Of a stretch of DNA of 64,000 nt, positions 15,301 through 36,970 are shown one piece after another (position 1 is the stretch's first letter; each line of letters opens with the position of its first letter). The DNA comes from Actinocorallia herbida (lineage in GTDB: Bacteria > Actinomycetota > Actinomycetes > Streptosporangiales > Streptosporangiaceae). The position numbers and the translations under genes were made by a program. The stretch covers positions 1,178,001 to 1,242,000 of the forward strand of contig NZ_RJKE01000001.1 in the NCBI RefSeq assembly GCF_003751225.1, given 5' to 3'. The notes beneath the pieces were generated by a model, which worked only from the letters and a program-made list of their open reading frames with translations, ran no database searches and was not told the DNA's origin.

Positions 15301-16344
15301 TCAGTACTTCGCGGCGCCGAGCGACTTCATCAGGTGCGGCCACGCGTTGCGGAACTCGCGGTTCCAGTAGGCCCAGTTGTGCAGGCCGTCGCCGTAGACG
15401 TTGGCGGTGTGCGGGATGCCGAGCGCCTTGAGCTTGGCGATGAACGACTTGACCGTCACGCCGACGAGCGCCTCGCCGACCCCGCCGACGACCTGGGACT
15501 GGGTGCCGCCGACGACGCCCATGTCGTCGAGGACGTCGCCCCAGGTGGCGTCCAGGGGGCCGGGCTTGCCGGTGGTCCCGGTCGACAGGTACATCCCGAC
15601 GCCCCGCAGGTTCGGCGCGAGGTAGTACGGGTCGTGCGAGAGCCAGTTGGCCCGGTCGCCGACCGGGTCGCCCCACTTCTGCGCCGCGGTCGCGCCGGTC
15701 GACGACGTCATGTCGGCGAGTTCCATCATCGTGGGGATGCCCGGCTTGGTCATGTGCAGGATGCCGCTGAAGGAGGCGGCGTACTTGAACAGCCCCTTGT
15801 GCCGGGCGGCGTAGGTGATGGCGCCCTGGCCGCCGGAGGAGATCCCCATGACGGCGCGGCGGGCGCCGCCGCGGTAGTTGCGCTCGATGATCTGGACGAC
15901 CTCGGCGGTGTGCCAGGTCTCCCAGTTGACGACGCCGCCGCCCTTGGGCCGCAGCCAGTCGGTGAAGCCGGCCGAGACACCGCCCTCGGGCATGACGACC
16001 AGGACGTCCCACGCCGCGGCGTAGTCCTTGAGGTCGGTCATGACGTCCCAGCCCTGGTAGTCGCCGCCCTCGCCGCCGCCGCCGTAGACGTAGAGGACGG
16101 GCCAGGTGCGCGCGGCGTTCTTGCTCCAGCCGAGCGGGAGGAAGAGCCGGATCTTGCACTGCATGAAGGGGATCGACGGGGTGGCCACGGTGAGGTCGAG
16201 CGTTCGCGCCCTGACCTCCTGCTCGCCGACGACGGTCGCGCCGGTGTCGGCGGGGGCCGCGTGTGCCGCACCCGGGCGCACGGCGGTGAGCATGCTGGTG
16301 AGCGCGATACCGCCGAGTGCGGTGCGCCTTGTCACGGAATGCAC
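15301..16344 (-). CDS. secreted alpha/beta-hydrolase esterase (antigen 85/esterase D-like)
   Basis: A 347-aa secreted hydrolase. The N-terminus has a twin-arginine-type signal (TRRTALGGIAL) ending about AHAAPA (residue 31). The body matches the esterase/mycolyltransferase-like fold: LPLGWSKNAARTWPVLYVYGG, the nucleophile elbow GISSGG (Ser169 in GxSxG), an acidic residue further on, and a final catalytic-His stretch DGLHNWAYWNREF. It could remove or transfer acyl groups on a surface glycan. No specific substrate can be read. The start is GTG 16344; a second GTG nine bases in is an alternative. It is divergent from cslA with a 530-bp gap, so it may share regulation with the polysaccharide genes. 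Confidence 0.82.
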   Translation of the reverse strand: MHSVTRRTALGGIALTSMLTAVRPGAAHAAPADTGATVVGEQEVRARTLDLTVATPSIPFMQCKIRLFLPLGWSKNAARTWPVLYVYGGGGEGGDYQGWDVMTDLKDYAAAWDVLVVMPEGGVSAGFTDWLRPKGGGVVNWETWHTAEVVQIIERNYRGGARRAVMGISSGGQGAITYAARHKGLFKYAASFSGILHMTKPGIPTMMELADMTSSTGATAAQKWGDPVGDRANWLSHDPYYLAPNLRGVGMYLSTGTTGKPGPLDATWGDVLDDMGVVGGTQSQVVGGVGEALVGVTVKSFIAKLKALGIPHTANVYGDGLHNWAYWNREFRNAWPHLMKSLGAAKY

Positions 16345-16567
16345 GGATGTGCCCCTCGGGGTGGGCAGAGTCTGGATTTGTTGGACTCTTCGTCTGTTGC
16401 GGGGAAACCTAGCGGATCATCCCGCTAACTCGCCACTCATATCACTCTGGGTGACGGTAATGGACGCTTCGTCCCAGCGACGGGCACGACCGGTGGTTGA
16501 CACCGGTTGACCTATCCACTTGCATTGCAGAATGCGCTGTGAAAGATCAATAGGAGGCACGGGAAGG

Positions 16568-16693
16568 GTGCGGTTTTCCGTCTTTATCAATGGCGAGTGG
16601 AACATTCCGAACCCGGGCGCGCACACTCCTCGCAGGCGGGCGCACAGCGGCCCTGACCGTATGATTCATGGATGGGCCGGAAAGTTCGGATGA
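16568..16693 (+). CDS. possible 41-aa small protein with strong ribosome site
   Basis: GTG 16568 is preceded by a perfect AGGAGG (16552-16557), one of the best ribosome sites in the window. It opens 41 codons beginning VRFSVFINGEWNIPNPG and ending at TGA 16693. The product is short, basic in the middle, and matches nothing I recognise. The strength of the ribosome site is the only real support. Confidence 0.22.
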   Translation: MRFSVFINGEWNIPNPGAHTPRRRAHSGPDRMIHGWAGKFG

Positions 16694-16790
16694 CTTTCGT
16701 GAGCATCATCACGTCCCCCCCGATCGCCTGACGGACAGTAGCGGGGTGATCCGTGGATAAGTCAGAGGGATCTTCGTAATCTGCTGAAAG

Positions 16791-16819
16791 TAACTTCTGG
16801 GCAACGCGGGTCCTATAGG
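16791..16819 (+). promoter_or_regulatory. candidate promoter of cslA operon
   Basis: TATAGG at 16814-16819 is a plausible -10, and GTAACT at 16791-16796 a plausible -35 of an ECF-like type, with a 17-base spacer. This would place transcription about 50 bases before the chosen cslA start. By-eye call only. Confidence 0.25.
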
Positions 16820-16875
16820 GTCTAGACCGTTTCGTGCGGCATGTGCCGCTTTCCGTGTTCGTGGAGAGGCGCTCT

Positions 16876-18789
16876 GTGACCGACATGTCGACCTCATCGT
16901 CGACCTCGCCAGGCGGGCCTGACTTCGAATGGCTCACCGGTGGCGTGCCGCAGGCTGCCCAGCGGCCGCCCGCGCCGCAACAGGCCGCGCCGCCGCGCCC
17001 GCCCCTGCCCCCCCGGCAGGCGCGTCCCGTACCTCCGCAGGGCCAGTACCCCCCGCAGGGCGCGCGCCCTCCGGCCGCCGGCATGCGCGTGGGCCAGGCT
17101 CCGCGCCCCCGTACCGCGGGCCCCCGCCCGCAGCGCCGCCCCGTGCCCCCCGGCCCGCCCGGCGGCGACACCCTGCGGACCATGGAGGATCTTCCTCCGA
17201 TGCCGCGCCGGCCCCAGCCACGGGGCCGCAGGCTGCGTCCGGTACCGCCCATTCCGGACCCTTCCCCGCTGCTCCCGCAGCCGCCGGACGACAAGGAGAA
17301 GTACTCCTATGCCGACCGGTACATCTGGGTCCTGAACATCTTCACCTTCATCAGCTTCGTCTGCCTGGCGATCACGGCGGTGAAGTTCGTCTCGATCAGC
17401 CAGCTGTGGCTCGCGGCGCCGTTCCTGTTCTTCACGGTCCTCAACTACCTGCTGTCACTGCGGCTGGACCTTTTCACGAAGAACTTCGACATCGACCACC
17501 ACCGCGAGATCGTCGACAACTGGCAGCCCGCGCGCTACCCGTCGGTCGACATCTTCCTGCCGGTGTGCGGTGAGCCGATCGAGGTCATTCACAACACCTG
17601 GACCCATGTGCGCCGGGTCGTCGAGTACTACCCCGGCAAGTGCGTGCCCTACGTCCTGGACGACGGCGCCAGCCCCGAGCTCGCCGCGATGGCCGCCGAC
17701 TTCGGCTTCCGCTACGGCTCCCGGCCGAACCGCGGCTGGTACAAGAAGGCCGGCAACCTCCAGTTCGGCTACCACAGCTCCGACGGCGACTTCATGCTGA
17801 TCCTGGACGCCGACTTCGCGCCCCGGCACGACATCCTCAACGAGGTCCTGCCGGTCATGGACGACGACCCCCGGATCGGCATCGTCCAGACCCCGCAGTT
17901 CTTCCGCGTCCTGGACCACCAGACGTGGGTGGAGCGCGGCGCGGGCGCCTCGCAGGAGCTCTTCTACCGCTCCGTCCAGGTCTCCCGGCAGCGCCGCAAC
18001 GGCTCGATCTGCGTCGGCTCCTGCGCGGTCTACCGCCGCGCCGCGCTGAACGAGAACAACGGCACCACGCTGATCGAGCACTCCGAGGACATCCACACCG
18101 GCTACGACCTCCAGGTCCTCGGGTGGAGCACCAAGTACGTCCCGATCGCGCTGTCGGCCGGGGTGTGCCCGGACAACGCCGGCGCCTTCCACAACCAGCA
18201 GTACCGCTGGTGCATGGGCTCCTTCTCGCTGCTCGGCGCGAAGAAGTTCTGGAAGGCCCCGCTGCCGTTCTCCACGAAGATGTCCTTCGCCGCGGGAATG
18301 CTCTACTACCTGCACACCGCGCTCTTCACGTTCGTCGCGCCGATCCTGCCGATCATGATGCTCATCGGCGCGCCGCACCTGATGAACCTGAAGCACATGG
18401 TCTGGCTGGTCCCCAGCCTCATCTACGCGTCGATCATCTTCCCCGCGTGGCACCGCGCGCCCTTCCGCCTCGAGGCGTGGGCCGTCGGCTTCATGCAGGG
18501 CTGGGCGCACGTGTTCGCGCTGTGGGACATGGTGCGCGGCCGTGAGATGGGCTGGAAGCCGTCCGGTTCCAACGGCGTCAAGAAGAACAAGATGGGCCGC
18601 GTCTACAAGTCGTACGTGTTCTTCAGCGGCGGCTGCGCGGCGATCTGGCTCGGCCTGGCCTGCTGGCGCATGGCCACCATGTACCCGCCGGACGTGGCGA
18701 TGGCGCTGGCGACCGCGCTGTTCTACGCCGTCGTCGTCGGCCGGGTGCTGGTCTCGCCGCGCGAATACCGGGACGTGGTGGACGACTGA
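16876..18789 (+). CDS. cslA: CslA-like processive beta-glycosyltransferase (cellulose synthase-like, GT2)
   Basis: A 637-aa membrane glycosyltransferase expected to polymerise a beta-glycan from a nucleotide sugar and pass it through the membrane. The first ~140 residues are a Pro/Gln/Arg-rich disordered cytoplasmic tail, as in Streptomyces CslA. Two helices follow, then the catalytic domain with FLPVCGEP, YVLDDG, the DxD in LILDADF (D311, D313), the base motif SED (403-405, in place of the usual TED) and QQYRW (441-445), and further C-terminal helices. No PilZ domain is seen, so direct c-di-GMP binding is not indicated. Start GTG 16876 is 6 bases after GGAGAGG; ATG 16885 is the alternative. 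It overlaps the GH26 lipoprotein gene by one base (TGATG). In Streptomyces the partner gene is a single glxA; here the four GlxA-like genes lie about 8 kb downstream. Confidence 0.92.
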   Translation: MTDMSTSSSTSPGGPDFEWLTGGVPQAAQRPPAPQQAAPPRPPLPPRQARPVPPQGQYPPQGARPPAAGMRVGQAPRPRTAGPRPQRRPVPPGPPGGDTLRTMEDLPPMPRRPQPRGRRLRPVPPIPDPSPLLPQPPDDKEKYSYADRYIWVLNIFTFISFVCLAITAVKFVSISQLWLAAPFLFFTVLNYLLSLRLDLFTKNFDIDHHREIVDNWQPARYPSVDIFLPVCGEPIEVIHNTWTHVRRVVEYYPGKCVPYVLDDGASPELAAMAADFGFRYGSRPNRGWYKKAGNLQFGYHSSDGDFMLILDADFAPRHDILNEVLPVMDDDPRIGIVQTPQFFRVLDHQTWVERGAGASQELFYRSVQVSRQRRNGSICVGSCAVYRRAALNENNGTTLIEHSEDIHTGYDLQVLGWSTKYVPIALSAGVCPDNAGAFHNQQYRWCMGSFSLLGAKKFWKAPLPFSTKMSFAAGMLYYLHTALFTFVAPILPIMMLIGAPHLMNLKHMVWLVPSLIYASIIFPAWHRAPFRLEAWAVGFMQGWAHVFALWDMVRGREMGWKPSGSNGVKKNKMGRVYKSYVFFSGGCAAIWLGLACWRMATMYPPDVAMALATALFYAVVVGRVLVSPREYRDVVDD

Positions 18790-19919
18790 TGCGCTCCGGC
18801 AAGACCCTGCGCGCGGCGGCCGTGCTGATGGCCGCCGCGCTCGCGCTGGCGGCCTGCGGCGACCCCGCCCTGGACCGCGACGCCTACCACGCGGCCGATC
18901 CGGTCGACGACATCCCGCCGGTCAAGCCGGTGGACCTCCGCAAGCTCATCTGGCCGGACAAGGACTACATCGGCCTGGCCTACGACGGCACGATCGATTC
19001 CGGGCTGGAGCGGCGCAAGGCCTTCGGCGACCTCGTCGGCCGCCCGCACAACCTCCTCAAGTACTTCGAGGAGTTCGGCGGGGACTTCAAGGACGAGGAG
19101 AACAAGAGGATCTGGGACGCGGGCGCCCTGCCGTTCGCCGACGTCGAGCCGTACGACGGCACCCTTCGGGATTTCGCCGACGGCAAGTACGACGCGGACA
19201 TCAGGAGGTACGCGGCCGAGGTCAAGGCCGCCAACATCCCGGTGGCCTACTCCTGGGGCCACGAGATGAACGGCTGGTGGTACCCGTGGGGGTACTGCTC
19301 GGACTCCGGCCACCTGGAGAAGGACGGCAGCGAGAAGTCCGAGGACGACCTCGGCGACGCCTGCAAGGACGAGTCCAAGGAGAACACCCCCGAGGACTTC
19401 GTCGACGCCTGGAAGCACATCCACGACGTCTTCACCGAGACCGGCGTCGGCAACGTCATCTGGGTCTGGAGCCCCAACACCGCCCAGGGCGATGGCCTGC
19501 CCCCGGTGAAGAAGTTCTACCCGGGTGACGAGTACGTCGACTGGATCGGCGTCTCCGGCTACATGTACAAGGACAAGGACAACCCCGCCGACCGCAGCAA
19601 CATCTTCATGGGCGTCTTCGGCGACCTCTACAAGGAGCTGCGCGCCTTCACCGAGAAGCCCATCGTGATCGCCGAGACCGGCTCCACCGCGGACAAGGCC
19701 AAGGCGAACGACGTCCACCGCCTCCTCAAGGGCTCCGTGAGGTTCAAGGACATCCTCGGCTACGTCTGGTTCGACGTGAAGAAGGTGGAGTTCGGGAACG
19801 AGACGGACTTCCGCGTCGAGGCACGAGCCGACGCCGTCAAGCGCTACCGCAAGGACCTCACGACGCCGTGGGGCCAGAAACTCGGCTTCGACCCAGAACA
19901 GCTGATCAATGACGACTGA
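18789..19919 (+). CDS. GH26-type glycoside hydrolase lipoprotein 1
   Basis: A 376-aa exported lipoprotein (signal MRSGKTLRAAAVLMAAALAL, lipobox LAACGD). The mature part is a (beta/alpha)8 GH26-type domain. The acid/base Glu lies in GHEMNGWWYPWG (E159) and the nucleophile Glu in IVIAETGS (E296); both are conserved in beta-mannanases and related GH26 enzymes. An extra acidic, Lys-rich insertion with two Cys (around residues 170-200) follows the first motif. It shares one base with the cslA stop and overlaps the next membrane protein by 11 bases, so the three genes almost certainly form one transcript. Likely role: trimming or release of the polymer made by CslA on the outer face of the membrane. 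GH26 members also cut xylan and mixed glucans, so substrate is open. Confidence 0.85.
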   Translation: MRSGKTLRAAAVLMAAALALAACGDPALDRDAYHAADPVDDIPPVKPVDLRKLIWPDKDYIGLAYDGTIDSGLERRKAFGDLVGRPHNLLKYFEEFGGDFKDEENKRIWDAGALPFADVEPYDGTLRDFADGKYDADIRRYAAEVKAANIPVAYSWGHEMNGWWYPWGYCSDSGHLEKDGSEKSEDDLGDACKDESKENTPEDFVDAWKHIHDVFTETGVGNVIWVWSPNTAQGDGLPPVKKFYPGDEYVDWIGVSGYMYKDKDNPADRSNIFMGVFGDLYKELRAFTEKPIVIAETGSTADKAKANDVHRLLKGSVRFKDILGYVWFDVKKVEFGNETDFRVEARADAVKRYRKDLTTPWGQKLGFDPEQLINDD

Positions 19920-21462
19920 GACCCGGCACGAGGTACCTTCCCCGAGGGAGGACCACGAGGAGCCGAAGAAGTACCGCTCCAACGTACGACCGGCGCCCTA
20001 CCGGATCCCCTCCGCGCCTCCCATCGCGTGGGCTCCGGGCAACAGCAAGCGCCGCGCCTGGCTGAGCCGCATCGTGCTGTTCGGCCTGCTGATCATGCAG
20101 GCCATCCTGACGCTGCGGCTGCGCAACACGGTGTACGAGGGCGAGACCTCGATCCTGCCGTCGAACGGCGACTTCCACGGCGGCACCGCGCTGTACCCGG
20201 CGCTGTCCGAGGCGGTCCAGACCGCCCTCGGCGTGCAGGGCATGCGGGCGTTCAGCCTGATCTTCATGATCTGCGCGACGGGCCTGCTGTACTCGTTCTC
20301 CACCCGCCTGTTCAACGAGCGGGTGGGCCTCGCCGCGGCGGGTTCCTACAGCGTGATCGCGCCGACCCTCGTCGCGGGCGCGCTGGCCACCGAGGACGCC
20401 CTCGCGGTGCTGCTGCTCGCCGGGGCCATGTGGCTCGTCGTGCTGAGCCGCAGCGGGCCGGCCTGGCCGCTGTTCGCCGCGGCGCCCGTCGCGGTGCTCG
20501 CCGTCGCCGTCAAGTACGGCGCGGTGTTCTACCTTCCGTCGATCCTGCTGCTGGCCGTGCTGGTCACCACGCGGCACACGTCGGTCGGCCAGGCGTTCGT
20601 CCGTTCCTCCGGGCTGCTCGTCGCGCTGCTCATCGGGCTCGGCCTGTACGCGTCAGGCGCCTCCGGCGCGCCCGCGGCGGTGCCCCTCGGCGACCTGGCG
20701 AGCGGCTGGATCTACTGGCTCGGCACCTTCCTCGCCTTCGGCCTGTTCGGCGCCGGCTTCTACATCTGGAAGGCCCGGATGGGCGAGGTGCCGGTCGGCG
20801 CCGACGCCGAGCCCGGCCGCGGCTGGCGGGTCGCGCTGAGCCTGGCCTTCCTGCTGCCCGGCCTCATCGCGCCGCTGCTGCTCGTCGGCACCGCCTTCGA
20901 GGACAGCCTCTGGAGGCTCCAGTTCGCCTTCGCCGGGCTGCTGGGCGCGACGATGACGGGCGTCGGCCTCGTCCGCATGATCGGCAGGCACTTCCGCTTC
21001 CCCCAGGTCGGCATCATCGCCGCGATCGCGCTGCTCGCCCTCGGCATGGCCCAGTCGGAGTACGAGTACACGCTCTGGCCGAACTACACGAACCTGGCGA
21101 AGGTGCTCGACGAGAGCGTCGAGCCGGCCGGGAAATACCTGGCGGCCTCGCCTGAAGAAACCTTCAGCAGCTATATGAAGGAATACCGTCCCGCGCAGTG
21201 GACCTCCCTGTCCACGGTCGTCGACAAGGGCTTGGACGACGGCGGTCTCGCCCAGATCAAGGGCGCGCTGCGCAAGGGGACCTACGAAATGATCGTCGTG
21301 CAGTACCCGGCCGCCACTCCGGTGGACGAGGCACTGCTCGCACAGCTCAGGGCAGGCACCGGTGACTACCGAGTGCTGACCGGTGTGCCCTTCCGGCTCG
21401 GCTGGACCGTGGGCGCACATCAACTGTGGGTCAAGAATCTGGCCGGCCCCGCGGCGCCCTGA
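19909..21462 (+). CDS. GT-C/ArnT-like multi-spanning membrane protein
   Basis: A 517-aa membrane protein. A ~50-residue charged cytoplasmic tail is followed by about ten hydrophobic segments (from LSRIVLFGLLIMQAIL onwards) and a soluble C-terminal ~110 residues. The layout resembles GT-C glycosyltransferases of the GT39/GT83 type. In the first loop the usual acidic pair is represented by GETSILPSNGDFHGG, so sugar transfer from a polyprenyl-phosphate donor is plausible but not certain. The start ATG 19909 lies inside the end of the GH26 gene (11-base overlap), which argues for tight coupling. It may decorate or help export the glycan made by the neighbouring CslA-like synthase. Confidence 0.72.
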   Translation: MTTETRHEVPSPREDHEEPKKYRSNVRPAPYRIPSAPPIAWAPGNSKRRAWLSRIVLFGLLIMQAILTLRLRNTVYEGETSILPSNGDFHGGTALYPALSEAVQTALGVQGMRAFSLIFMICATGLLYSFSTRLFNERVGLAAAGSYSVIAPTLVAGALATEDALAVLLLAGAMWLVVLSRSGPAWPLFAAAPVAVLAVAVKYGAVFYLPSILLLAVLVTTRHTSVGQAFVRSSGLLVALLIGLGLYASGASGAPAAVPLGDLASGWIYWLGTFLAFGLFGAGFYIWKARMGEVPVGADAEPGRGWRVALSLAFLLPGLIAPLLLVGTAFEDSLWRLQFAFAGLLGATMTGVGLVRMIGRHFRFPQVGIIAAIALLALGMAQSEYEYTLWPNYTNLAKVLDESVEPAGKYLAASPEETFSSYMKEYRPAQWTSLSTVVDKGLDDGGLAQIKGALRKGTYEMIVVQYPAATPVDEALLAQLRAGTGDYRVLTGVPFRLGWTVGAHQLWVKNLAGPAAP

Positions 21463-21499
21463 GCACTTCCATCCACGACCCCCTGGAGCACCATCCGTC

Positions 21500-22762
21500 A
21501 TGACGACCCTCCGACCACTACTGGCACTCACGCTCCCCGTGGTGTTCGCGGCCGGTTGCGCCTCGCCCACCACGGAGACGGCAGCCCCGAAGGACAAGCC
21601 GACCTACGCCATCGACCGCGACGCCAGCGGCCGTGACGTCTACACCGAGGAGACCCCCGAGGCGAAGTCCCCGGCGGCCTCCGGCGGCTCGAACGACAGC
21701 GCCGGCTCCTCCGCGGAGGACCCGGCGGTCGATCTCGGCCTCGACGAGGCCGACGGCACCGATGGCGCCGACCGCAAGGCCAAGAAGAAGGTCTACAACT
21801 ACAACCCGCCGAAGAACTTCAAGCGCTACAACGCGCCCGGCGTCGTCAACGTCAACAAGCACATCTACCCGAAGCGTGACATCTTCGGCGTCTTCACCGA
21901 CCAGGCGCGCAACCAGATCGCGGACCGCAACGCGCTCGCCAAGAAGGTCGGCATGAAGCCGAACATGATCAAGAGCTTCTACAACTGGGGCAACCCGGTC
22001 GACCCGAACTGGGCGCGCAGCATCTGGAACGCCGGCGCCTACCCGCAGCTGGAGCTCGAGGCACAGGACCCCGCGGTCGCCTCGGTCGCCTCGGTCGCGG
22101 CGGGCCAGGAGGACGAGTACATCCGCGCGCTGGCCCAGAGCATCAAGACCGCGAACGTGCCGATCGTGTTCAGCCCGTTCCACGAGATGAACGGCGACTG
22201 GTACCCGTGGGGCCACTGCGGGCCGACCTCCAAGCCGGAGTCGAACGCCTGCCAGGTCGGCACCACTCCGGCGCAGTTCCGCGCCGCGTGGAAGCGGATG
22301 CACAACATCTTCAAGCAGGTCGGCGCCACCAACGCGATCTGGGTGTGGCAGACCAACCAGATCGGCGCGCGCCCGCAGGTGCGGCTCAAGCAGTTCTACC
22401 CGGGCAACGCCTACGTGGACTGGGCCGGCACGGTGGGCTACTACTACCCCGAAAAGGGCTGGTACGCCTCCTGGAACGAGATCTTCGCGCCCACGCTCAA
22501 GGAGATCAAGAAGGTCACCAACAAGCCGATCTTCATTCCGGAGATGGGCATGGAGCCGAGCAAGAAGTACCGTGCCCGGGACGTCAAGAACTTCCTGAAG
22601 GCCGTCTCCGCTCGCCGGGACGTCATCGGCTTCCTGTGGTTCAACTACAACAAGCCGACCGAGACCGACTTCCGGATCGAGGCCAGCGCGGCGTCCCTCA
22701 AGGCGTTCAAGTACTGGATCAAGCAGGGCACCTACGGCTTCGACCCCCGCAAGGTGAAGTAG
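21500..22762 (+). CDS. GH26-type glycoside hydrolase lipoprotein 2
   Basis: A 420-aa lipoprotein (lipobox FAAGCA, Cys about residue 20). A ~90-residue Ser/Glu/Asp-rich linker is followed by a GH26-type catalytic domain. The acid/base motif is PFHEMNGDWYPWGHCG (E229), closest of the three to classical mannanases, and the nucleophile motif is IFIPEMGM (E348). The long linker would let the enzyme reach away from the membrane. Start ATG 21500 follows GGAG by 11 bases and gives a proper lipoprotein signal; a longer upstream frame has none. It lies 37 bp after the GT-C gene and is probably in the same transcript. Confidence 0.86.
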   Translation: MTTLRPLLALTLPVVFAAGCASPTTETAAPKDKPTYAIDRDASGRDVYTEETPEAKSPAASGGSNDSAGSSAEDPAVDLGLDEADGTDGADRKAKKKVYNYNPPKNFKRYNAPGVVNVNKHIYPKRDIFGVFTDQARNQIADRNALAKKVGMKPNMIKSFYNWGNPVDPNWARSIWNAGAYPQLELEAQDPAVASVASVAAGQEDEYIRALAQSIKTANVPIVFSPFHEMNGDWYPWGHCGPTSKPESNACQVGTTPAQFRAAWKRMHNIFKQVGATNAIWVWQTNQIGARPQVRLKQFYPGNAYVDWAGTVGYYYPEKGWYASWNEIFAPTLKEIKKVTNKPIFIPEMGMEPSKKYRARDVKNFLKAVSARRDVIGFLWFNYNKPTETDFRIEASAASLKAFKYWIKQGTYGFDPRKVK

Positions 22763-23148: not shown

Positions 23149-24138
23149 ATGCAGTTCCGTTTCCTCGTAGCGTCCGCGCTTCCGCTGGCCCTGGTGGCCG
23201 GCTGCTCCTCGACCGGCGGCACGGTGGAGCCCAGCTCGTCGCAGACGGTCGAACACGAAGCCGGCCAGTCGGGCGGCGCCGAGTCCGCGGAGCGGGCCGC
23301 CAAGCGCGAGTACCTGGGCATCTACTCCGAGGGCGCGCAGAAGAACAAGCCCGCCGCCCAGGCCAAGTACTGGAAGAAGAAGGTCGGCCGCGCGCCCAAC
23401 ATCACCAAGCAGTTCCAGGCCTGGTACGCCCCCTACCCGACCGCGTGGGCCAAGGAGGCCCAGAAGGTCGGCGCGATGCCGCAGATCGAGTGGGAGCCGC
23501 ACGGCAAGGGCCTCATGGCCGACATCGCCGCGGGCGAGAGCGACGACTACCTGATCGAGTACGCGAACGCCGTCAAGGCCGCCAAGGTCCCGATCTCGAT
23601 CAGCTTCGCGCACGAGATGAACGGCTGGTGGTACGACTGGGGCACGAAGGGGACCAAGCCGGCCACCTTCGTCAAGGCCTGGCGCCACGTCGTGGACGTC
23701 TTCGACAAGCAGGGTGCGACCAACGTCAAGTGGCTGTGGGCGCCCAACGTCATCTTCCCGATGCCCAAGGTCGGCCTGAAGCAGTACTACCCGGGCGACA
23801 AGTACGTCGACTGGATCGGCGTCATCGGGTACTACCGCAACAAGCAGTCGCAGAAGACCTTCAGCACCATCTTCGAGCCGACGATCAAGAAGATCAAGAC
23901 GTTCTCGAAGAAGCCGATCCTGCTGGCCGAGACCGGCGTGCAGACGGGTCAGGGCCGGGACAAGAAGATCTCCGACCTGCTGTCCAAGGTCGCGAAGCGC
24001 AAGGACATCATCGGTCTCATCTGGTTCAGTATGGACAAGAGGAAAACAGAAGGTACCGATTACCGTCTGGAAGTAAACAAGTCGTCGCTGAAGACGTTCC
24101 GCTCCTACGTGACCAAGTACCCTTTCGGCCGTCCCTGA
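23149..24138 (+). CDS. GH26-type glycoside hydrolase lipoprotein 3
   Basis: A 329-aa lipoprotein, the shortest of the three GH26-type proteins here (lipobox LVAGCS). A short Ser/Glu-rich linker leads to the catalytic domain, with SFAHEMNGWWYDWG (acid/base E156) and LLAETGVQ (nucleophile E261). Lys-rich segments are frequent. Start ATG 23149 follows GGAGG at about 5 bases; the frame upstream of it has no signal peptide. The codons near the end include AAA and GTA-type codons rare elsewhere in the window, but the coding frame is intact. It is followed 22 bp later by manA. Confidence 0.84.
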   Translation: MQFRFLVASALPLALVAGCSSTGGTVEPSSSQTVEHEAGQSGGAESAERAAKREYLGIYSEGAQKNKPAAQAKYWKKKVGRAPNITKQFQAWYAPYPTAWAKEAQKVGAMPQIEWEPHGKGLMADIAAGESDDYLIEYANAVKAAKVPISISFAHEMNGWWYDWGTKGTKPATFVKAWRHVVDVFDKQGATNVKWLWAPNVIFPMPKVGLKQYYPGDKYVDWIGVIGYYRNKQSQKTFSTIFEPTIKKIKTFSKKPILLAETGVQTGQGRDKKISDLLSKVAKRKDIIGLIWFSMDKRKTEGTDYRLEVNKSSLKTFRSYVTKYPFGRP

Positions 24139-25298: not shown

Positions 25299-25325
25299 CT
25301 CCGCCGGTCGGGCGGAGAAGTTTCA
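25299..25325 (+). terminator. hairpin after manA
   Basis: CTCCGCC and GGCGGAG (25299-25305 / 25311-25317) pair as a 7-bp stem with a 5-base loop, followed by AAGTTTCATT. It probably ends the cslA-to-manA transcript and separates it from the oxidase region. Confidence 0.5.
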
Positions 25326-28608: not shown

Positions 28609-28669
28609 TTCGCACCTTCGCGGGACGCGCGGCGCGCGTCACGTGCACGAAAAGTTCGGAGTTTCCCCT

Positions 28670-30826
28670 ATGCGGTACACACGCCCCCGAGCGTCCGCGA
28701 TCATGTTCGCCTCCGCCGTCGGAGCCACCGCCCTGTTCTCGGGCGCGGTTCCCGCGGCCAACGCCGCCCCTTCGCCGAAGGTCCAGAACCCGGGCCTGGA
28801 GAAGGTGTCGGGCGGTCTGCCGGAGTGCTGGGCCAAGTACTCGACCGGCACCAACACCGGCACCTTCGCCTCGGTGAAGGGCGGCAACAAGAGCGCCAAG
28901 GCCGCGACGGTGTCCGTCACCGCGCACCGCGGCGGCTTCAAGGCCCTGCTCCAGAAGCCGGGCTGCGCCATCAAGGTCAACCCGGGCAAGAAGTACGACC
29001 TCCAGCTGTCCTACAAGACGGACTCGGAGAAGACGGCCCTGACGGTCTTCCGGCAGAAGAAGAACGGCGCCTGGGTGAAGTGGCACACCTTCCCCCACCT
29101 GCCGTCGTCCAAGAACTACCGCCTGTCCGTGGGCCGCACCCCCGCGGTCCCGGCGGGCACCAAGGCGATCCGGTTCGGCCAGGGCCTCTACGGCACCGGC
29201 ACCCTGACCACCGACAACTACAAGATCTCCCCGGCCAAGGGCACCGCCAAGTGCGTCGGCTCGGAGTGCACCAAGGGCCACTGGATCGTCCAGGACTTCG
29301 GTAACGGAGGTGTCCGGGCGATCCACAGCGTCCTGCTGCACAACGGCAAGGTGCTGCTCATCGCGGGCTCCGGCAACGACCCGGACAACTTCAACGCCGG
29401 CACGTTCACCACCAAGGTCTACGACCCGAAGACCAACAGGTTCACGAACGTGCCGACCCCGTACGACATGTTCTGCGCGGGCCACGTGCAGCTCGCCGAC
29501 GGGCGGGTGCTCGTCGTGAGCGGCACCGAGGAGTACGCCCAGTACGACCCGCAGACCGGCGCGGAGACCGCGGGCTGGAAGGGCTCGAAGAAGTCCTACA
29601 TCTTCGACCCGGCCACCAACCGGTACACCAAGGCCAACGACATGGTCGACGGCCACTGGTACCCGTCGGCGACGATCCTGCCGAACGGCGACGTCTACTC
29701 CGTCGGCGGCTACGCCTACGAGCGGGCCGGCGGCGACGTCGGCGGCAACAAGGTGTCGCTGGTCAGCGAGCTGTTCTCGGCGAGCAAGAAGCGGTGGCTG
29801 CCCGAGAACCAGGTCGCGCAGACCGGTATCAACTGGGCGACCTACCCGTCGCTGCACCTGACGACGAAGGCGGCCCCGCTGTTCTACAGCGGCGTCAGCG
29901 TCTTCAGCCACCCGGTGAACGCCGACGGCTCGCTGCGCGGTCCCGGCTTCCTCGACCCGTACACGGGCGCGTGGCAGGCGCTGCCGAACAACGGCGGCCT
30001 GCGCAGGGCCGACGCGCGGGACCAGGCGGCCTCGGTGCTGCTGCCCCCCGCGCAGGACCAGCGGGTGATGGTCGTGGGCGGCAAGGACTTCAGCAAGCCC
30101 GACGCGGCGATCCGGCTGACCGACGTCATCAACCTGAAGTCGGCGAACCCGAAGTACACCGCGGGACCGAACCTGCCTCTCGGCACCGTCCACTACGGCG
30201 ACGGCACCGACGCGCCCGTGGGCAGGCAGACCGGCGCCCAGGGCAAGACGTACGTCTCGACGGTCCTGCTGCCGGACGGCAAGGTGCTGGAGACCGGCGG
30301 CTCCCAGGCGGCCCGTGCCGAGCACGTGCACGAGACGTCGATCCTCGACCCGGTGCCGTCGGTGTCGAAGATGAAGTGGAAGTCGGTCGCGCCGGACCCG
30401 GTGAGCCGCAGCTACCACGCCTCGGCGGTGCTGCTCCCGGACGGCCGGGTCCTGGCCGTCGGCAGCAACCCGTGGGACAACTCCTTCGACACCCGGATCT
30501 CCATCTACGCCCCGCCGTACCTGTACAAGGGCGGTGAGACGCCGAAGATCACGTCCTACCAGAAGGGCCTGAGCACCGGCGCCAAGACCACGATCAGCAC
30601 GAGCACGCCGATCACCAAGGCGTCGCTGATCCGGCCGATCGCGGTCACCCACTCCTCCGACCCCAACCAGCGGTCCATCAACGTGCCGGTGAAGGCGCTC
30701 GGCGGCGGCAAGTACCGGCTGAGCATCGACGCCCGCAAGAGCATGGTGCCGCCCGGCTGGTACATGCTGTTCGTCCAGACGAAGACCGGCAAGCCCTCCG
30801 AGGCGCGCTGGGTGCACATCAAGTAA
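28670..30826 (+). CDS. secreted GlxA-like copper-radical oxidase 2
   Basis: A 718-aa paralogue of the first oxidase, same order of parts: signal peptide ending near ANAAPS, N-terminal carbohydrate-binding-like domain (NPGLEKVSGGLPECW), Kelch domain, C-terminal DUF1929-type domain. Cofactor and ligands are all kept: FCAGHVQLADG, DGHWYPSATIL, SRSYHASAVLL, VTHSSDPNQR. Compared with oxidase 1 the N-terminal domain contains many more Lys residues (FRQKKNGAWVKWHTFP) and the region after the cofactor Tyr has an insertion YERAGGDVGGNK. It is clearly closest to oxidase 3 (shared DPVPSVSKMKWKSVA and GSNPWDNSFDTR). Start ATG 28670 is preferred over GTG 28643 because it begins MRYTRPR like the other paralogues. 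Confidence 0.93.
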   Translation: MRYTRPRASAIMFASAVGATALFSGAVPAANAAPSPKVQNPGLEKVSGGLPECWAKYSTGTNTGTFASVKGGNKSAKAATVSVTAHRGGFKALLQKPGCAIKVNPGKKYDLQLSYKTDSEKTALTVFRQKKNGAWVKWHTFPHLPSSKNYRLSVGRTPAVPAGTKAIRFGQGLYGTGTLTTDNYKISPAKGTAKCVGSECTKGHWIVQDFGNGGVRAIHSVLLHNGKVLLIAGSGNDPDNFNAGTFTTKVYDPKTNRFTNVPTPYDMFCAGHVQLADGRVLVVSGTEEYAQYDPQTGAETAGWKGSKKSYIFDPATNRYTKANDMVDGHWYPSATILPNGDVYSVGGYAYERAGGDVGGNKVSLVSELFSASKKRWLPENQVAQTGINWATYPSLHLTTKAAPLFYSGVSVFSHPVNADGSLRGPGFLDPYTGAWQALPNNGGLRRADARDQAASVLLPPAQDQRVMVVGGKDFSKPDAAIRLTDVINLKSANPKYTAGPNLPLGTVHYGDGTDAPVGRQTGAQGKTYVSTVLLPDGKVLETGGSQAARAEHVHETSILDPVPSVSKMKWKSVAPDPVSRSYHASAVLLPDGRVLAVGSNPWDNSFDTRISIYAPPYLYKGGETPKITSYQKGLSTGAKTTISTSTPITKASLIRPIAVTHSSDPNQRSINVPVKALGGGKYRLSIDARKSMVPPGWYMLFVQTKTGKPSEARWVHIK

Positions 30827-30834
30827 GGCCCGAC

Positions 30835-30864: not shown

Positions 30865-30920
30865 TCCGGTTCGCGGACCCCCACCCCACCCCGCAGCACG
30901 ACAGAAGTCCTGGAGCCCCC

Positions 30921-33062
30921 ATGCGGTACGCATATTCCCGTACCTCCGCGGTCCTCGCGGCCTCCGCGGTCGGCGCGACGGCGCTGCTCGCGGGCGCGGT
31001 GCCCGCGGCGAACGCCGCGCCGTCCCCCAAGGTGCAGAACCCCGGCCTCGAACAGGTCGCGGGCGGCCTGCCCAAGTGCTGGGAGAAGTACTCCACGGGA
31101 AGCAGCACGGGCACCTTCGCCTCGGTGGCGGGCGGCAACAAGAGCGCCAAGGCCGCGACGGTGGAGGTCACCGCCTACCGCAGCGGCGCCAAGGCGCTGC
31201 TCCAGGCACCGAACTGCGCGATCAAGGTCAATCCCGGCAAGAAGTACGACCTCCAGCTCGCCTACAAGACGACGTCGGAGAAGACCGCCCTGACCGTCTT
31301 CCGGCAGAAGAAGAACGGCGCCTGGGTGAAGTGGCACACCTTCCCCCAGCTGCCTTCCGCGAAGGGCTTCCGCCTGTCCGTCGGCCGCACCCCCGCGGTT
31401 CCGGCGGGCACCAAGGCGATCAGGTTCGGTCAGGCGATCCAGAGCACCGGCACGCTGACGACCGACAACTACCAGATCTCGCTCGCCAAGGGCACCGCGA
31501 AGTGCGCCGGCTCGGAGTGCACCAAGGGCCACTGGGTCGTCCAGGACTTCGGCGGCGCCGGAGTCAAGTCGGTCCACACGGTCCTGCTGTACAACGGCAA
31601 GGTCCTCATGATCGCCGGGTCGGGCAACAACATCAACGAGTTCAAGAACCCGAAGACCAAGCTCTACGACCCGAAGACGAACAAGCTCACCGACATCCCG
31701 ACGCCGTACGACATGTTCTGCGCGGGCCACGTGCAGCTCCCCGACGGACGCGTCCTGGTCATGGGCGGCACCGACGAGTACTCCGACTACAACGTCACGC
31801 CCGACACCGGGTGGATCGGATCGCGGAAGTCGTACCTGTTCAACCCGAAGACCAACCGGTACGAGGCGGTCAACCTCATGGCCGACGGGCACTGGTACCC
31901 GTCGGCGACGCTCCTGGCCAACGGCGACGTGTACTCCGTCGGAGGCTACGCCGACGAGCGGCAGAACGACGCGGACCAGGGCAACCTCATCTCGCTCGTC
32001 GCCGAACGCTACTCGTGGTCCAAGAAGCGGTGGCTCAAGGAAGACGAGGTCGAGCAGCCGTACATCGACTGGGCCACCTACCCGGCGCTGCACCTCAACA
32101 CCACCAAGGCCGATCTGTTCTACAGCGGCAGCTATGTCTTCGGCCCGGCGCAGTACCCGGACGGGACGCTGCGCGGGCCCGGCTTCCTGGACCCCGACAC
32201 CGGCGCGTGGGGTCCGCTGGCGGGCAACGGCGGGCTGCGCATGCCCAGGGCCCGCGACCAGTCGGCCGCGGTGCTGCTGCCGCCCGCGCAGAACCAGCGG
32301 TACATGGTCATCGGAGGCAAGGACTTCGCCAACGCGGACTCCGCGATCCGGCTGACCGACGTCATCGACCTGCGCAAGGCCAAGCCGCGCTACGCGGCGG
32401 GCCCGGATCTGCCGCACGGCACCATCTACTACGGCGACGGCACCGACGCGCCCGGCCGCAAGCAGACGGGCGCGCAGGGCAAGACCTATGTGTCCGCGGT
32501 GATCCTCCCCGACGGCAAGGTGCTGGAGACCGGCGGCTCCGAGCTGACCCGGTCCAACCACGTGCACGAGACCTCGATCCTCGACCCGGTGCCGTCGGTG
32601 TCGAAGATGAAGTGGAAGTCCGTCGCGGCCGACCCGGTGAGCCGCAGCTACCACGCCTCGGCCCTGCTGCTCCCGGACGGCCGGGTCCTGGCCGTCGGCA
32701 GCAACCCGTGGGACAACTCGTTCGACACCCGGATCTCCATCTACTCGCCGCCCTACCTTTACAAGGGCGGCGACGCACCCAAGATCACGTCCTACCAGAA
32801 GGGCCTGACCACGGGCGCGAAGACGACGGTCTCCAGCAGCAGCCCGATCACCAAGGCGGCGCTGATCCGGCCGATGGCGGTGACGCACTCGTCCGACCCG
32901 AACCAGCGGTCCGTCGACCTGCCGGTGAAGGCGCTCGGCGGCGGCAAGTACCGCCTGACGATCGACAAGCGCAAGACCATCGTGCCGCCCGGCTGGTACA
33001 TGCTGTTCGTCCAGACCAAGTCCGGCAAGCCCTCCGAAGCCCGTTGGGTGCACATCAAGTGA
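30921..33062 (+). CDS. secreted GlxA-like copper-radical oxidase 3
   Basis: A 713-aa paralogue, most similar to oxidase 2 over the N-terminal domain and the last 200 residues, which suggests a recent tandem duplication. The signal peptide ends near ANAAPS. Active-site stretches are YDMFCAGHVQLPDG, DGHWYPSATLLANG, SRSYHASALLL and VTHSSDPNQRS, all intact. The middle of the Kelch domain differs most: a shortened loop (TDEYSDYNVTPDTG) where oxidases 1 and 2 have EEYAQYDPQTGAETAG, and SYVFGPAQYPDG where the others have SVFSHPVNADG. Such loop changes near the copper site would be expected to alter substrate choice. ATG 30921 follows TGGAG by 6 bases. A 650-bp gap follows it. Confidence 0.93.
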   Translation: MRYAYSRTSAVLAASAVGATALLAGAVPAANAAPSPKVQNPGLEQVAGGLPKCWEKYSTGSSTGTFASVAGGNKSAKAATVEVTAYRSGAKALLQAPNCAIKVNPGKKYDLQLAYKTTSEKTALTVFRQKKNGAWVKWHTFPQLPSAKGFRLSVGRTPAVPAGTKAIRFGQAIQSTGTLTTDNYQISLAKGTAKCAGSECTKGHWVVQDFGGAGVKSVHTVLLYNGKVLMIAGSGNNINEFKNPKTKLYDPKTNKLTDIPTPYDMFCAGHVQLPDGRVLVMGGTDEYSDYNVTPDTGWIGSRKSYLFNPKTNRYEAVNLMADGHWYPSATLLANGDVYSVGGYADERQNDADQGNLISLVAERYSWSKKRWLKEDEVEQPYIDWATYPALHLNTTKADLFYSGSYVFGPAQYPDGTLRGPGFLDPDTGAWGPLAGNGGLRMPRARDQSAAVLLPPAQNQRYMVIGGKDFANADSAIRLTDVIDLRKAKPRYAAGPDLPHGTIYYGDGTDAPGRKQTGAQGKTYVSAVILPDGKVLETGGSELTRSNHVHETSILDPVPSVSKMKWKSVAADPVSRSYHASALLLPDGRVLAVGSNPWDNSFDTRISIYSPPYLYKGGDAPKITSYQKGLTTGAKTTVSSSSPITKAALIRPMAVTHSSDPNQRSVDLPVKALGGGKYRLTIDKRKTIVPPGWYMLFVQTKSGKPSEARWVHIK

Positions 33063-33712
33063 CCCGGGGGTCGCGGGGGAAGAGCCGGGACGGGTGTGTC
33101 GGCAGTGGCGATCAGGCACGACTTCATCACGAATTCCCTTCATTTCCATAGAGGATTCGGCGCCGGCCGTTCCCGACGGATGCCGAACGCTCACCGGAAG
33201 TGCGAGACGCCGGAGGCGGCCGGGGGAAGATCACTCGGCGCGCGGGCTTGATGGCGATTCGCCGGGAAAGGCGGGCGGCCTTCCGTCCGGCGGCGCCGGC
33301 GGCGGGGGAGCGGGGTGTGGCGCATGCCATGACGGGCCGCCTCACCCGCTCGTCCGGACCCGCACGCCATGGCGCTGACCTGGGGTCATCGTCGATCGGA
33401 TGTGCCGGGCGACCGGGACCGGACCGGCTCGGCCCCGGCCTTCGGTGCTTCCGCACCCGAGAAATGCGGAGATCATCTCGGGTGCGGATCGGGCTCTGCC
33501 GCGGGTGTCTTTCCTCGGCCGTTCCTGAATGCGTTCCCCTCGCCATCCCGTCGTGTTGACTCTTTGTGCGCGCGCCGGATGATCAATGGGTCGACGCCAT
33601 TTCTCGGCGGCCGATCATCCGGTCGTCTCGGGGGCGTGCGGGTGGTGGCTGCGATGAGGTACAACAATCGTGAACGGATTGGACAAATCCGACATGAGTG
33701 ATTGAGGAGCCG
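33063..33712. other. 650-bp intergenic before oxidase 4
   Basis: The longest gap inside the oxidase array. I see no gene with convincing composition on either strand. It holds a perfect 12-bp inverted repeat (33451-33487) and, close to oxidase 4, an AT-richer stretch (33650-33700) with GGATTGGACAAATCC that is likely promoter or operator sequence. Oxidase 4 therefore appears to be separately controlled. Confidence 0.6.
33451..33487. repeat. perfect 12-bp inverted repeat
   Basis: CCGCACCCGAGA (33451-33462) and TCTCGGGTGCGG (33476-33487) form a 12-bp stem around a 13-base loop. It lies 390 bp after oxidase 3 and 226 bp before oxidase 4, so it is oddly placed for a terminator; a regulatory site or a small RNA terminator are alternatives. 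Confidence 0.6.
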
Positions 33713-35923
33713 ATGCGGTACGAACGTCGAGGGACCCCTGCCGTCTTTGTCGCCTCCGCGGTCGGCGCCACCGCGCTGCTCGCGGGCGGACCCGCCGCGG
33801 CGGCCGCCGCGCCCGCGCCCAAGGTGCGCAACGCGGGGCTGGAACAGGTCTCCGGCGGACTGCCGCAGTGCTGGGCGAAGTACACGACGGGCGACAACGC
33901 GGGCTCGGTCGCCTCGGTCGCGGGCGGGCAGAAGAGCGGCCGGGCCGCGACGGTCACGGTCACCCGGCACCGCAGCGGCGCCCGCGCCCTCCTCCAGTCC
34001 CCGGGCTGCGCCATCAAGGTCAACCCCGGCAAGAAGTACGACCTCCAGCTCGCCTACAAGACGACTTCGGACAAGTCGGCGCTGACGGTCCTGCGGCAGA
34101 AGAAGAACGGCTCCTGGGTGAAGTGGTACACCTTCCCCTACCTGCCTTCCTCGACGGGCTTCCGGGCGTCCGTCGGCCGGACCCCGGCCGTCCCGGCGGG
34201 CACCAAGGCGATCAGGTTCGGCCAGGGCCTGTTCGGCACGGGCACGCTGACGACAGACAACTACAAGATCTCCCTGGCCAAGGGCACCGCCAAGTGCGCC
34301 GGCTCGGAGTGCACCAAGGGCCACTGGATCGTCAACGACTTCGGTGACGGCGGCGTGCGCGCCATGCACAGCGTCGTGCTCAACAACGGCAAGGTGCTGC
34401 TCATCGCGGGATCGGGCAACGGAGGCGCCCGCTTCAAGCGCGGCGAGTTCGTCACCAAGGTCTACGACCCGAAGACCAACACGTTCACGAACGTGCCGAC
34501 CCCGTACGACATGTTCTGCGCGGGCCACGTCCAGCTCCCCGACGGCAGGGTCCTGGTCCTCGGCGGCACCGAGGACTTCGCCGAGTTCAGCGGCGGGGTC
34601 TCCGACGAGGGCATCGGCTACGTCTACGAGTCCAAGGGCTGGAGCGGGGCGAAGAAGTCCTACATCTTCGACCCGGCCACCAACCGGTACTCCAGGGTCA
34701 ACGACATGGTCGACGGCCACTGGTACCCGTCGGCGACGCTCCTGGGCAACGGCGACGTCTACTCCGTCGGCGGCTACGACTACGAGCGCGGGCCGAACGA
34801 GGAGAGCGTCATCTCGCCCTACTCCGAGCGGTTCTCCTGGGCGACCCGCAAGTGGCTCGGCGACGCCAAGGTCCCCGAGACCGACATCAACTGGGCGACC
34901 TACCCGTCGCTGGTGCTCGCCGCCAACGGCAAGCTCTTCTACAACGGCAGCAGCGTCTTCGGGCACCCGTCGTACTACGGCAACGGCAAGATCGTCGGCC
35001 CCGGCTACCTCGACCCCGCGACCGGCGCCTACCGGGAGATCGGCGGCACCCGCGACGACGCGGGCGACAACGCGGGCCTGCGCTACGCGGCCGCGCGCGA
35101 CCAGTCGGCCTCGCTGCTGCTCCCGCCCGCCCAGGACCAGCGCGTCATGGTCATCGGAGGCAAGGACTTCACCGACGCCGCGGGCTTCGGCCTCCGCGCG
35201 ACCGACGTCATCGACCTGCGCAAGGGGAACTCCGCGAACTACGCGGACGGCCCGAACCTGCCCTACGGCAAGGTGGAGATCGGCGGCCAGATCGTCCAGC
35301 AGGGCGGCGGCAAGGGCAAGGTGTACGTGTCCGCGGTGATCCTCGCCGACGGCAAGGTGATGGAGACCGGCGGCTCCCAGTACAACCGGGCCGAGCACGT
35401 GCACGAGGCGTCGATCCTCGACCCGGCGAAGTCCACGGGGTCGATGAGGTGGAAGTCCGTCGCGGCCGACCCCGTCGCCAGGACGTACCACAGCAGCGCC
35501 GTCCTGCTCCCGGACGGCCGGGTCATGGCGATCGGCAGTAACCCGGACATCTCGGTGGCGGCCGACGGCGGAGACAGCTACTTCGACACCCGCATCTCGA
35601 TCTACTACCCGCCGTACCTGTACACCAAGGGCGAGGCCCCGAAGGTCACCAAGGCCTCCAAGCGGTGGTCCTACGGCAGCGCGCCCACGATCACGACGAG
35701 CACGCCCGTCACGTCGGCGTACCTGGTCCGCCCGATCGCGGTCACGCACTCCTCCGACCCGAACCAGCGCGCGGTGAAGCTGCCGCTCAAGTCCCTCGGC
35801 GGCAACCGCTACCGGCTCGACGTCACCGGCAGCCGCAACATCGCCCCGCCCGGCTGGTACATGCTGTTCGTGAAGAACAAGAGCGGCAAGCCGTCCGCCG
35901 CGAGCTGGGTCCGCATCGGCTGA
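33713..35923 (+). CDS. secreted GlxA-like copper-radical oxidase 4
   Basis: A 736-aa paralogue and the most divergent of the four. The signal peptide ends in an Ala-rich run near AAAAPA. The N-terminal binding-like domain, Kelch and DUF1929-type parts are in the same order. Active-site motifs are intact: YDMFCAGHVQLPDG, DGHWYPSATLLGNG, ARTYHSSAVLL and VTHSSDPNQRA. Differences are a long insertion FAEFSGGVSDEGIGYVYESKG after the cofactor Cys, and GHPSYYGNGKIVG plus GGTRDDAGDNAG in later blades, all in loops expected to face the active-site entrance. Start ATG 33713 is 4-5 bases after GAGGAG; GTG 33698 is an alternative. It ends 12 bp from the convergent GH12 gene. Confidence 0.93.
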   Translation: MRYERRGTPAVFVASAVGATALLAGGPAAAAAAPAPKVRNAGLEQVSGGLPQCWAKYTTGDNAGSVASVAGGQKSGRAATVTVTRHRSGARALLQSPGCAIKVNPGKKYDLQLAYKTTSDKSALTVLRQKKNGSWVKWYTFPYLPSSTGFRASVGRTPAVPAGTKAIRFGQGLFGTGTLTTDNYKISLAKGTAKCAGSECTKGHWIVNDFGDGGVRAMHSVVLNNGKVLLIAGSGNGGARFKRGEFVTKVYDPKTNTFTNVPTPYDMFCAGHVQLPDGRVLVLGGTEDFAEFSGGVSDEGIGYVYESKGWSGAKKSYIFDPATNRYSRVNDMVDGHWYPSATLLGNGDVYSVGGYDYERGPNEESVISPYSERFSWATRKWLGDAKVPETDINWATYPSLVLAANGKLFYNGSSVFGHPSYYGNGKIVGPGYLDPATGAYREIGGTRDDAGDNAGLRYAAARDQSASLLLPPAQDQRVMVIGGKDFTDAAGFGLRATDVIDLRKGNSANYADGPNLPYGKVEIGGQIVQQGGGKGKVYVSAVILADGKVMETGGSQYNRAEHVHEASILDPAKSTGSMRWKSVAADPVARTYHSSAVLLPDGRVMAIGSNPDISVAADGGDSYFDTRISIYYPPYLYTKGEAPKVTKASKRWSYGSAPTITTSTPVTSAYLVRPIAVTHSSDPNQRAVKLPLKSLGGNRYRLDVTGSRNIAPPGWYMLFVKNKSGKPSAASWVRIG

Positions 35924-35935
35924 GCCGAGGGGGCG

Positions 35936-36970
35936 CTAGCGAGCGGCGCCGCGCCGCCACCACCACGCCCCGGCCGCCGCGCCCGCGACCACGGGCAGCA
36001 CGATGAGGAACGGCAGGGGCACGCCCGAGGCCCCGCCGTCGCCCGCGGCCTTCTGCTTCGGCGCGGGCTCGGCCTGTGGCGGCACGGACTGCGCCGGGGT
36101 CGCGGGCGGCGGGGTGGCGGTCGGGTTCGGCATCGGCGCGCCCGTCAGGTCGGGGCCGGTCGGCTTCGCCTGCCCGGGATCGCCGACGTGCAGGGCGAAC
36201 GCGTCGGTGCGCAGGCCCACCCCGCCGCGGGTGATCTCGAACCCGGCCTGGACCTTGCACAGGTAGGCGTCCTGCCGCTGGAAGCCGCGGTCCGCGGCGT
36301 CCTTGGCGAACGGCTTGAGGTCGAAGTCGGTGATCGCGGTGGTGTGTTCGCGCATGTCGTAGATGAGCCCGACCTGACCGGTGGGGCCGGTGAACCGGTA
36401 CAGGTCGTAGACCCGGCCGCCCAGGCTCACCCCGTCGGCGATCTTCCACTCGGGGGAGGGGTCGATGCCCGGACTGGTCAGCCAGATCATGATCTCCAGC
36501 GCGCCGCCGTTGGCCACGATGTACGGGGCGGTCGACGTGCAGGCGCCGGCGTCGGGGTGGTACCAGACGTCGTAGGAGGCGTTGTAGTCGCCGTCGGCGG
36601 TCCCGATCGCCCAGGTGGTGCGGACGTCCTTGGGGCTGTCCACGCGCAGTGGGAGGCGCGTGTCGGAGAGCGCGGTGCCGATGTTCGGGTACGCGCCGGG
36701 CGGCGCCCCGTTCTGGAGGTTGCCCCAGTCCAGCGAGCTGGCGCTGACGCTGAAGCCCGCCTTCCCCTCGAAGGTGACACAGATCTCACCGTTGCTGTTC
36801 CACCGGTTGGCCTGGACCGCGTAGCCGCCCTCGACGAACCCCGGCTCGCCGGTGTTGCAGCGGGTCTCGGCATGGGCCGCGGAGCCCCACGGGCACAGGG
36901 CCGCAACCAGCGCGATCGCGGCAGCGCCGCCCAGTGTCGCTCGCAAGAACCTGCCTTCCTTCGGGGCCAT
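35936..36970 (-). CDS. membrane-anchored GH12 endo-beta-glucanase
   Basis: A 344-aa exported enzyme. Signal peptide to about AHAETR (residue 36), then a GH12 beta-jelly-roll catalytic domain: GGYAVQANRWNS, DVWYHPD, nucleophile Glu159 in LEIMIWL and acid/base Glu245 in AGFEITRGG. GH12 enzymes cut beta-1,4-glucan or xyloglucan. Unlike freely secreted GH12 cellulases, it has a Pro-rich stalk (271-310) and a C-terminal membrane helix (about 318-337) followed by RRGAAR, so the enzyme should stay on the outer face of the membrane. Start ATG 36970 follows GATGAGG; ATG 36982 is possible but lacks a ribosome site. A tethered beta-glucanase next to a CslA-like synthase and GlxA-like oxidases fits cutting of self-made glycan. 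Confidence 0.85.
   Translation of the reverse strand: MAPKEGRFLRATLGGAAAIALVAALCPWGSAAHAETRCNTGEPGFVEGGYAVQANRWNSNGEICVTFEGKAGFSVSASSLDWGNLQNGAPPGAYPNIGTALSDTRLPLRVDSPKDVRTTWAIGTADGDYNASYDVWYHPDAGACTSTAPYIVANGGALEIMIWLTSPGIDPSPEWKIADGVSLGGRVYDLYRFTGPTGQVGLIYDMREHTTAITDFDLKPFAKDAADRGFQRQDAYLCKVQAGFEITRGGVGLRTDAFALHVGDPGQAKPTGPDLTGAPMPNPTATPPPATPAQSVPPQAEPAPKQKAAGDGGASGVPLPFLIVLPVVAGAAAGAWWWRRGAAR

Follow-up and report, generated by a model that had tools for sequence, protein, structure and literature searches.

A cellulose-synthase-like glycosyltransferase coupled to a lichenase-type GH26 lipoprotein in a probable surface β-glucan operon of Actinocorallia and many Streptomyces relatives

Which polymer is made by a synthase whose gene runs into that of a membrane-tethered glycan hydrolase? 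A gene cluster of Actinocorallia herbida raises this question. It lies in the window, that is, the whole 64,000-nucleotide stretch of DNA analysed here, within a 9.8 Mb genome held in a single contig. The first-pass annotation had listed in this cluster a CslA-like synthase, three GH26 lipoproteins, a GT-C protein, ManA, oxidases, a GH12 glucanase and a secreted esterase. All of these genes are present (Table 1), as evidenced by a strong coding signal (GC3 0.92-0.98) and family matches. Both overlaps that had been reported are also exact, 1 bp between the stop of the cellulose-synthase-like gene (CSL) and the GH26a start, and 11 bp between GH26a and GT-C. GH26b does not overlap GT-C, because its lipobox places the start further downstream. 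An alternative in-frame start of CSL is possible near 16876, and a scan for sigma-70 promoters found none.

Table 1. Features of the cluster, in window positions
Feature	Position	Strand	Remarks
Secreted alpha/beta-hydrolase ("esterase", EST)	15301..16344	-	PF00756, twin-arginine-like signal
CSL, cellulose-synthase-like GT2	16834..18789	+	DxD, HSED, QQYRW; no PilZ
GH26a lipoprotein, lichenase branch	18789..19919	+	acid/base E159, nucleophile E296
GT-C membrane glycosyltransferase	19909..21462	+	PMT_2
GH26b lipoprotein	21500..22762	+	start moved from 21383 by lipobox
GH26c lipoprotein	23149..24138	+	start moved from 22960 by lipobox
manA, mannose-6-phosphate isomerase	24161..25291	+	family match
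Terminator-like hairpin directly 3' of manA	25299..25317	+	consensus match only
EXCAL (our label), small membrane-anchored protein	25919..26383	+	
GlxA-like secreted copper-radical oxidase 1	26408..28555	+	
GlxA-like oxidase 2	28643..30826	+	
GlxA-like oxidase 3	30921..33062	+	
GlxA-like oxidase 4	33698..35923	+	
GH12 endoglucanase, C-terminal membrane helix	35936..37030	-	conserved in 3/3 Actinocorallia

We compared three Actinocorallia genomes, namely the window's own and those of its nearest named relatives, Actinocorallia sp. API 0066 and Actinocorallia populi. The order from the esterase gene to leuA is kept in all three, with the same three GH26 genes, GT-C, manA, the small anchored protein, the oxidases and GH12 preceding leuA. 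The other two clusters carry three or four oxidases, and in A. populi a polyprenyl-phosphate-sugar-synthase-like GT2 is inserted between GH26b and GH26c. Since the order is identical in the three genomes, the grouping is not due to chance. The esterase gene is divergent from the synthase gene in all of them. Its product is of the secreted type, as annotated, but its nearest structures are those of the corynomycolyl-transferase PS1/Cmt1 (PS1, E 8e-43) and antigen 85; to our knowledge, Actinocorallia is not known to have mycolic acids.

CSL displays the hallmarks of a processive GT2 β-glycan synthase, that is, DxD (LDADF), (T/S)ED and QxxRW motifs, together with multiple membrane helices judged from sequence only; its N-terminus is proline-rich. 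Maximum-likelihood analysis of 40 GT2 proteins, with two long branches (NodC and a Streptomyces GT2) kept, united CSL with its distant relatives in a single clade (support 98/98), separate from both CslA and BcsA/BgsA. All but one of the actinobacterial members of this clade have HSED where CslA, BcsA and BgsA have TED. A search with the trimmed CSL core detected the clade in 16 of the 198 genomes sampled across the class, and in 13 of 91 genera.

This topology, along with only 25% identity over 325 residues to the canonical Streptomyces CslA encoded next to GlxA, rules CSL out as a CslA orthologue, contrary to the link drawn in the first-pass annotation. The cluster does resemble the CslA-GlxA-CslZ system in its processive GT2, its nearby copper-radical oxidases, its secreted glucanase and its setting as an actinobacterial surface glycan (PMC11022532). 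Nevertheless, CSL belongs to another clade, GT-C is present, and the four Actinocorallia oxidases are of a distinct subfamily. The two oxidases scanned against the GlxA equivalog NF052501 scored 371 and 350 bits (cut-off 800 bits), and no match above the cut-off exists in the genome. Neither are the oxidases coupled to the synthase, since the first lies 7.6 kb downstream of CSL, which is coupled to GH26 instead. No CslZ-type glucanase was found at the locus, where GH26 and GH12 are the sole hydrolase families. Although a cellulose-synthase-like GT2 near GlxA-like oxidases invites the comparison, orthology with the CslA-GlxA(-CslZ) cellulose system is thus extremely improbable; a similar function is possible.

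The Bcs system (bcsA-bcsB-bcsZ) offers another parallel, in that the synthase has its own glucanase, periplasmic or extracellular, and BcsA is the nearest solved structure to CSL. However, CSL scored 159 bits against the CelA equivalog TIGR03030, far below its cut-off of 699 bits, and a Pfam-type family scan matched no PilZ domain in it, so that it falls outside the Bcs cellulose synthases. The locus also lacks BcsB, and its hydrolase is a GH26 lipoprotein. Also comparable are the GT2 β-glucan synthases BgsA of Sinorhizobium (PMC5567048) and RiGT2 of Romboutsia (PMC10374906). BgsA likewise has no canonical PilZ, and the GH26 of the cluster suggests a lichenase-cleavable product. It groups with BcsA in the GT2 tree, apart from CSL, which excludes orthology, and its HlyD-type partner has no counterpart at the CSL locus.

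We then asked how far the association of synthase and hydrolase extends beyond the genus. Loci were chosen by the synthase alone: a contig scan yielded 79 and an order search added one, giving 80 distinct loci (83 rows in the neighbourhood listing, three of them repeats). The scan loci come mostly from Streptomyces, Kitasatospora, Streptacidiphilus and Actinacidiphila, with Sphaerisporangium, Planotetraspora and Actinocorallia besides. A synthase-adjacent GH26 was present in 80/80 distinct loci and GT-C in 79/80. As the loci were not selected for GH26, this co-occurrence is far beyond chance. CSL and GH26 overlap at the stop/start junction in 77 of 81 rows (two loci counted twice), by 4 bp in 45 and by 1 bp in 32; the synthase and the lipoprotein are therefore translationally coupled. 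The more distant CSL loci (n=14, 31-50% identity) retain GH26 in nine and GT-C in seven. Three of them (L160, L165 and L166) carry AT3-SGNH acyltransferases, which suggests O-acylated polymers in those lineages. Purely fortuitous co-occurrence, against which the first-pass proposal was to be checked, is thereby rejected for the CSL-GH26-GT-C core, but not for the oxidases, which join CSL solely in Actinocorallia across the 80 loci and the 14 distant ones. This triad is common to many Streptomyces relatives and broader than the Actinocorallia cluster. Many Streptomyces triads sit between what we take, from the sequences, to be rpoA-rplQ-truA and two ribosomal protein genes, often with truA on one side and rplM on the other. 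In Streptomyces albiflavescens, two triads stand in tandem (L068:4000-14216).

Biomass degradation typically involves GH26, GH12 and oxidases, and the cluster could accordingly be read as catabolic, directed at plant β-glucan, with the synthase adjacent by chance. We consider this very unlikely: the stop/start overlap that binds GH26 to the synthase holds across families, the hydrolases are lipid- or membrane-tethered, and the interval from EST to GH12 shows neither a sugar importer nor a sugar-responsive regulator. The coupling, along with GH12 beside the synthase in other genera, instead supports the earlier proposal of a self-made β-glycan with tethered hydrolases.

The GH26 partner provides a direct enzymatic handle on the product. 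The top fold matches of the GH26a model (pLDDT 93, built with 43 aligned sequences) were all to CtLic26A, the Clostridium thermocellum lichenase (Z 33.1, with an rmsd of 1.9 A across 269 residues), followed by a GH26 xylanase (Z 25.1) and by mannanases (Z 24.8 or less). Sequence searches ranked the enzymes similarly: E was about 1e-22 to 1e-23 for the lichenase, and mannanases reached about 1e-5 to 1e-9. A published phylogeny of GH26 places lichenases on a branch of their own, distinct from both mannanase branches (PMC6556568). By sequence and modelled fold, the GH26s of the cluster belong with CtLic26A, a likeness that predicts specificity without certainty. Of 94 GH26 rows, 92 retain both catalytic Glu residues and 93 the lipobox Cys. 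CtLic26A itself is a biomass-degrading enzyme, whereas its relatives in the cluster, at 27-29% identity, are synthase-tied lipoproteins.

Two further observations concern this family. The residue preceding the acid/base Glu (position 158 of GH26a) is Asp instead of His in 31 of 94 rows, about a third, and these rows often have Glu-Lys replacing Tyr-Pro after that Glu; such variation may point to a difference in specificity. The same genome encodes a fourth GH26 (L033:9341-10879, about 4.77 Mb), which is 82% identical to GH26b and has no synthase nearby.

The GH26 and manA content had been taken as a hint of a mannan or glucomannan. In such a system CSL would use GDP-mannose, GH26 would be a mannanase and the adjacent manA would supply the precursor. 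Most characterised GH26 enzymes are indeed mannanases, and a polyprenyl-phosphate-sugar synthase of the mannose-synthase kind is encoded at one locus of Actinocorallia (L025) and, in about half of the loci, downstream of CSL. This reading is nonetheless improbable, given that the GH26s are nearest to the lichenase and that manA, the sole copy in the genome and seen beside CSL in Actinocorallia loci only, is probably a housekeeping gene. The companion hydrolases also argue against it. GH12 is a β-glucanase family; it closes the far side of the oxidase array in 3/3 Actinocorallia genomes, and a GH12 lipoprotein with an extra C-terminal domain adjoins CSL in six Streptomycetaceae loci. GH16 β-glucanase domains accompany two distant CSLs, one of which also has a sugar-nucleotide pyrophosphorylase, and a UDP-glucose dehydrogenase gene lies downstream of CSL in 22 loci. 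The lichenase-type GH26, the GH12 and GH16 companions, the UDP-glucose dehydrogenase and the single-copy manA make a β-glucan, either cellulose-like or (1,3;1,4)-linked, more likely than a mannan.

GT-C, the third member of the triad, shows the GT-C fold: it matches PMT_2, and its model (pLDDT 68) resembles OST, ALG9, ALG12 and ArnT; a sequence search of the PDB returned nothing relevant. Of the 83 rows, which represent 80 distinct loci, 49 have a polyprenyl-phosphate-sugar synthase gene downstream of or near CSL. A GtrA call was made at 14 of 79 loci, and 2 of the 14 distant loci have both genes. The presence of these two functions near CSL in relatives indicates that GT-C there probably modifies the chain by adding a lipid-linked sugar. 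The fold and these companions recall the GtrA/GtrB/GT-C three-component systems, but here GT-C is linked to a processive synthase and GH26, and the window's own CSL locus lacks the other two parts. Moreover, the DE motif of the first outer loop, found in 48 of 54 rows, reads GE in the window and in both other Actinocorallia main loci, which casts doubt on GT-C activity in this genus. Elsewhere in the window, the region downstream of leuA (40041-42634) encodes a GtrA-type flippase together with a PMT-type GT-C, an arrangement conserved in A. populi (L176).

The explanation that we favour, with moderate confidence, is that the genes of the core (16834-22762, or extending to 24138) form an operon for a surface polysaccharide, a β-glucan that is edited by GH26. 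From the gene content, its conservation, the coupling, the clade, the fold and the retained catalytic residues, we infer a sugar, a linkage, an order of steps and a role for the oxidases. CSL would build a β-linked glucan, with UDP-glucose as the likeliest nucleotide-sugar donor, and extrude the chain through its own membrane channel. The co-translated lichenase-branch lipoproteins, tethered just outside the membrane, would cut or edit the emerging chain, by analogy with BcsZ, CslZ and CcsZ in known cellulose systems. On the outside, GT-C may add a lipid-linked sugar, probably supplied in most relatives by the polyprenyl-phosphate-sugar synthase and a GtrA flippase; in Actinocorallia this step may be altered or lost, as the catalytic Asp is changed. 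The tethered GH12 glucanase would act on the same polymer, and the four secreted GlxA-like oxidases with EXCAL, the Actinocorallia addition, may oxidise the glycan or its fragments.

The cluster would thus act like known synthase-plus-hydrolase polysaccharide systems, and what sets it apart is the distinct synthase clade and the lichenase-type GH26. In the literature found, the established synthase-made β-glycans of Streptomyces hyphae are only the CslA-GlxA glucan and PNAG, and our data point to a further synthase class, with a built-in hydrolase, in many Streptomycetaceae and Streptosporangiaceae. The open-access literature, including that on cell-wall mannans of these genera, yielded no description of a CSL-GH26-GT-C operon, which is weak evidence with subscription papers outside the scope of the search.

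The oxidases need separate consideration. All four retain the copper-radical residues: C267, Y574, H575, H658, W328 and the candidate cross-link Tyr Y308 (oxidase 1 numbering) are invariant in eight homologues, the copper-ligand, Cys and Trp positions being matched to GlxA (4unm) and galactose oxidase, and Y308 placed by motif only. The small anchored protein preceding them, EXCAL, had been described as calcium-binding-like, a label to which no Pfam match lends support. Its C-terminal domain forms the C-terminal part of a related oxidase in Streptomyces, and in Actinocorallia EXCAL is a separate protein; given this fusion, EXCAL and the oxidases are probably functionally paired.

The array looks like a unit of its own. 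It is quite possible, if somewhat short of an even chance, that two independent systems are neighbours here, namely the glycan operon from EST to GH26c and an oxidase/EXCAL array acting on another wall polymer. The terminator-like hairpin after manA (eight such consensus matches were found versus 4.4 expected) suggests that the oxidases form a separate unit of transcription, and the gap between manA and EXCAL exceeds 600 bp. Besides the restriction of CSL-associated oxidases to Actinocorallia, a fifth GlxA-like oxidase of the same genome, with its own EXCAL gene, stands far from any CSL (L034:9941-12662, about 6.89 Mb), and the related Streptomyces oxidase is preceded by a different GT2 and a PMT-type GT-C. 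Against independence, the three Actinocorallia genomes share one gene order, and the array is bounded on its far side by GH12, elsewhere a direct CSL neighbour. It is on this order, conserved within a single genus, and on the adjoining GH12 that the link of the oxidases to the glucan operon rests.

A bolder proposal can be made, which we hold only tentatively and think rather doubtful as a whole: the CSL clade would make up an actinobacterial class of bacterial mixed-linkage (1,3;1,4)-β-glucan synthases, the third such class. A co-translated lichenase-type lipoprotein would edit the chain as it is synthesised, and in Actinocorallia a dedicated array of four copper-radical oxidases would oxidise it. 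Were the product a mixed-linkage glucan, these bacteria would be a new bacterial source of it, with a new type of synthase, and the Actinocorallia version would provide a natural oxidase set that may act on β-glucan.

Finally, a separate locus of Streptomyces-type genomes (L049-L052, e.g., L050:9691-16251) encodes another GT2 beside a PMT-type GT-C, along with a GlxA-like oxidase to which the EXCAL domain is fused, and possibly represents another oxidised-glycan system.
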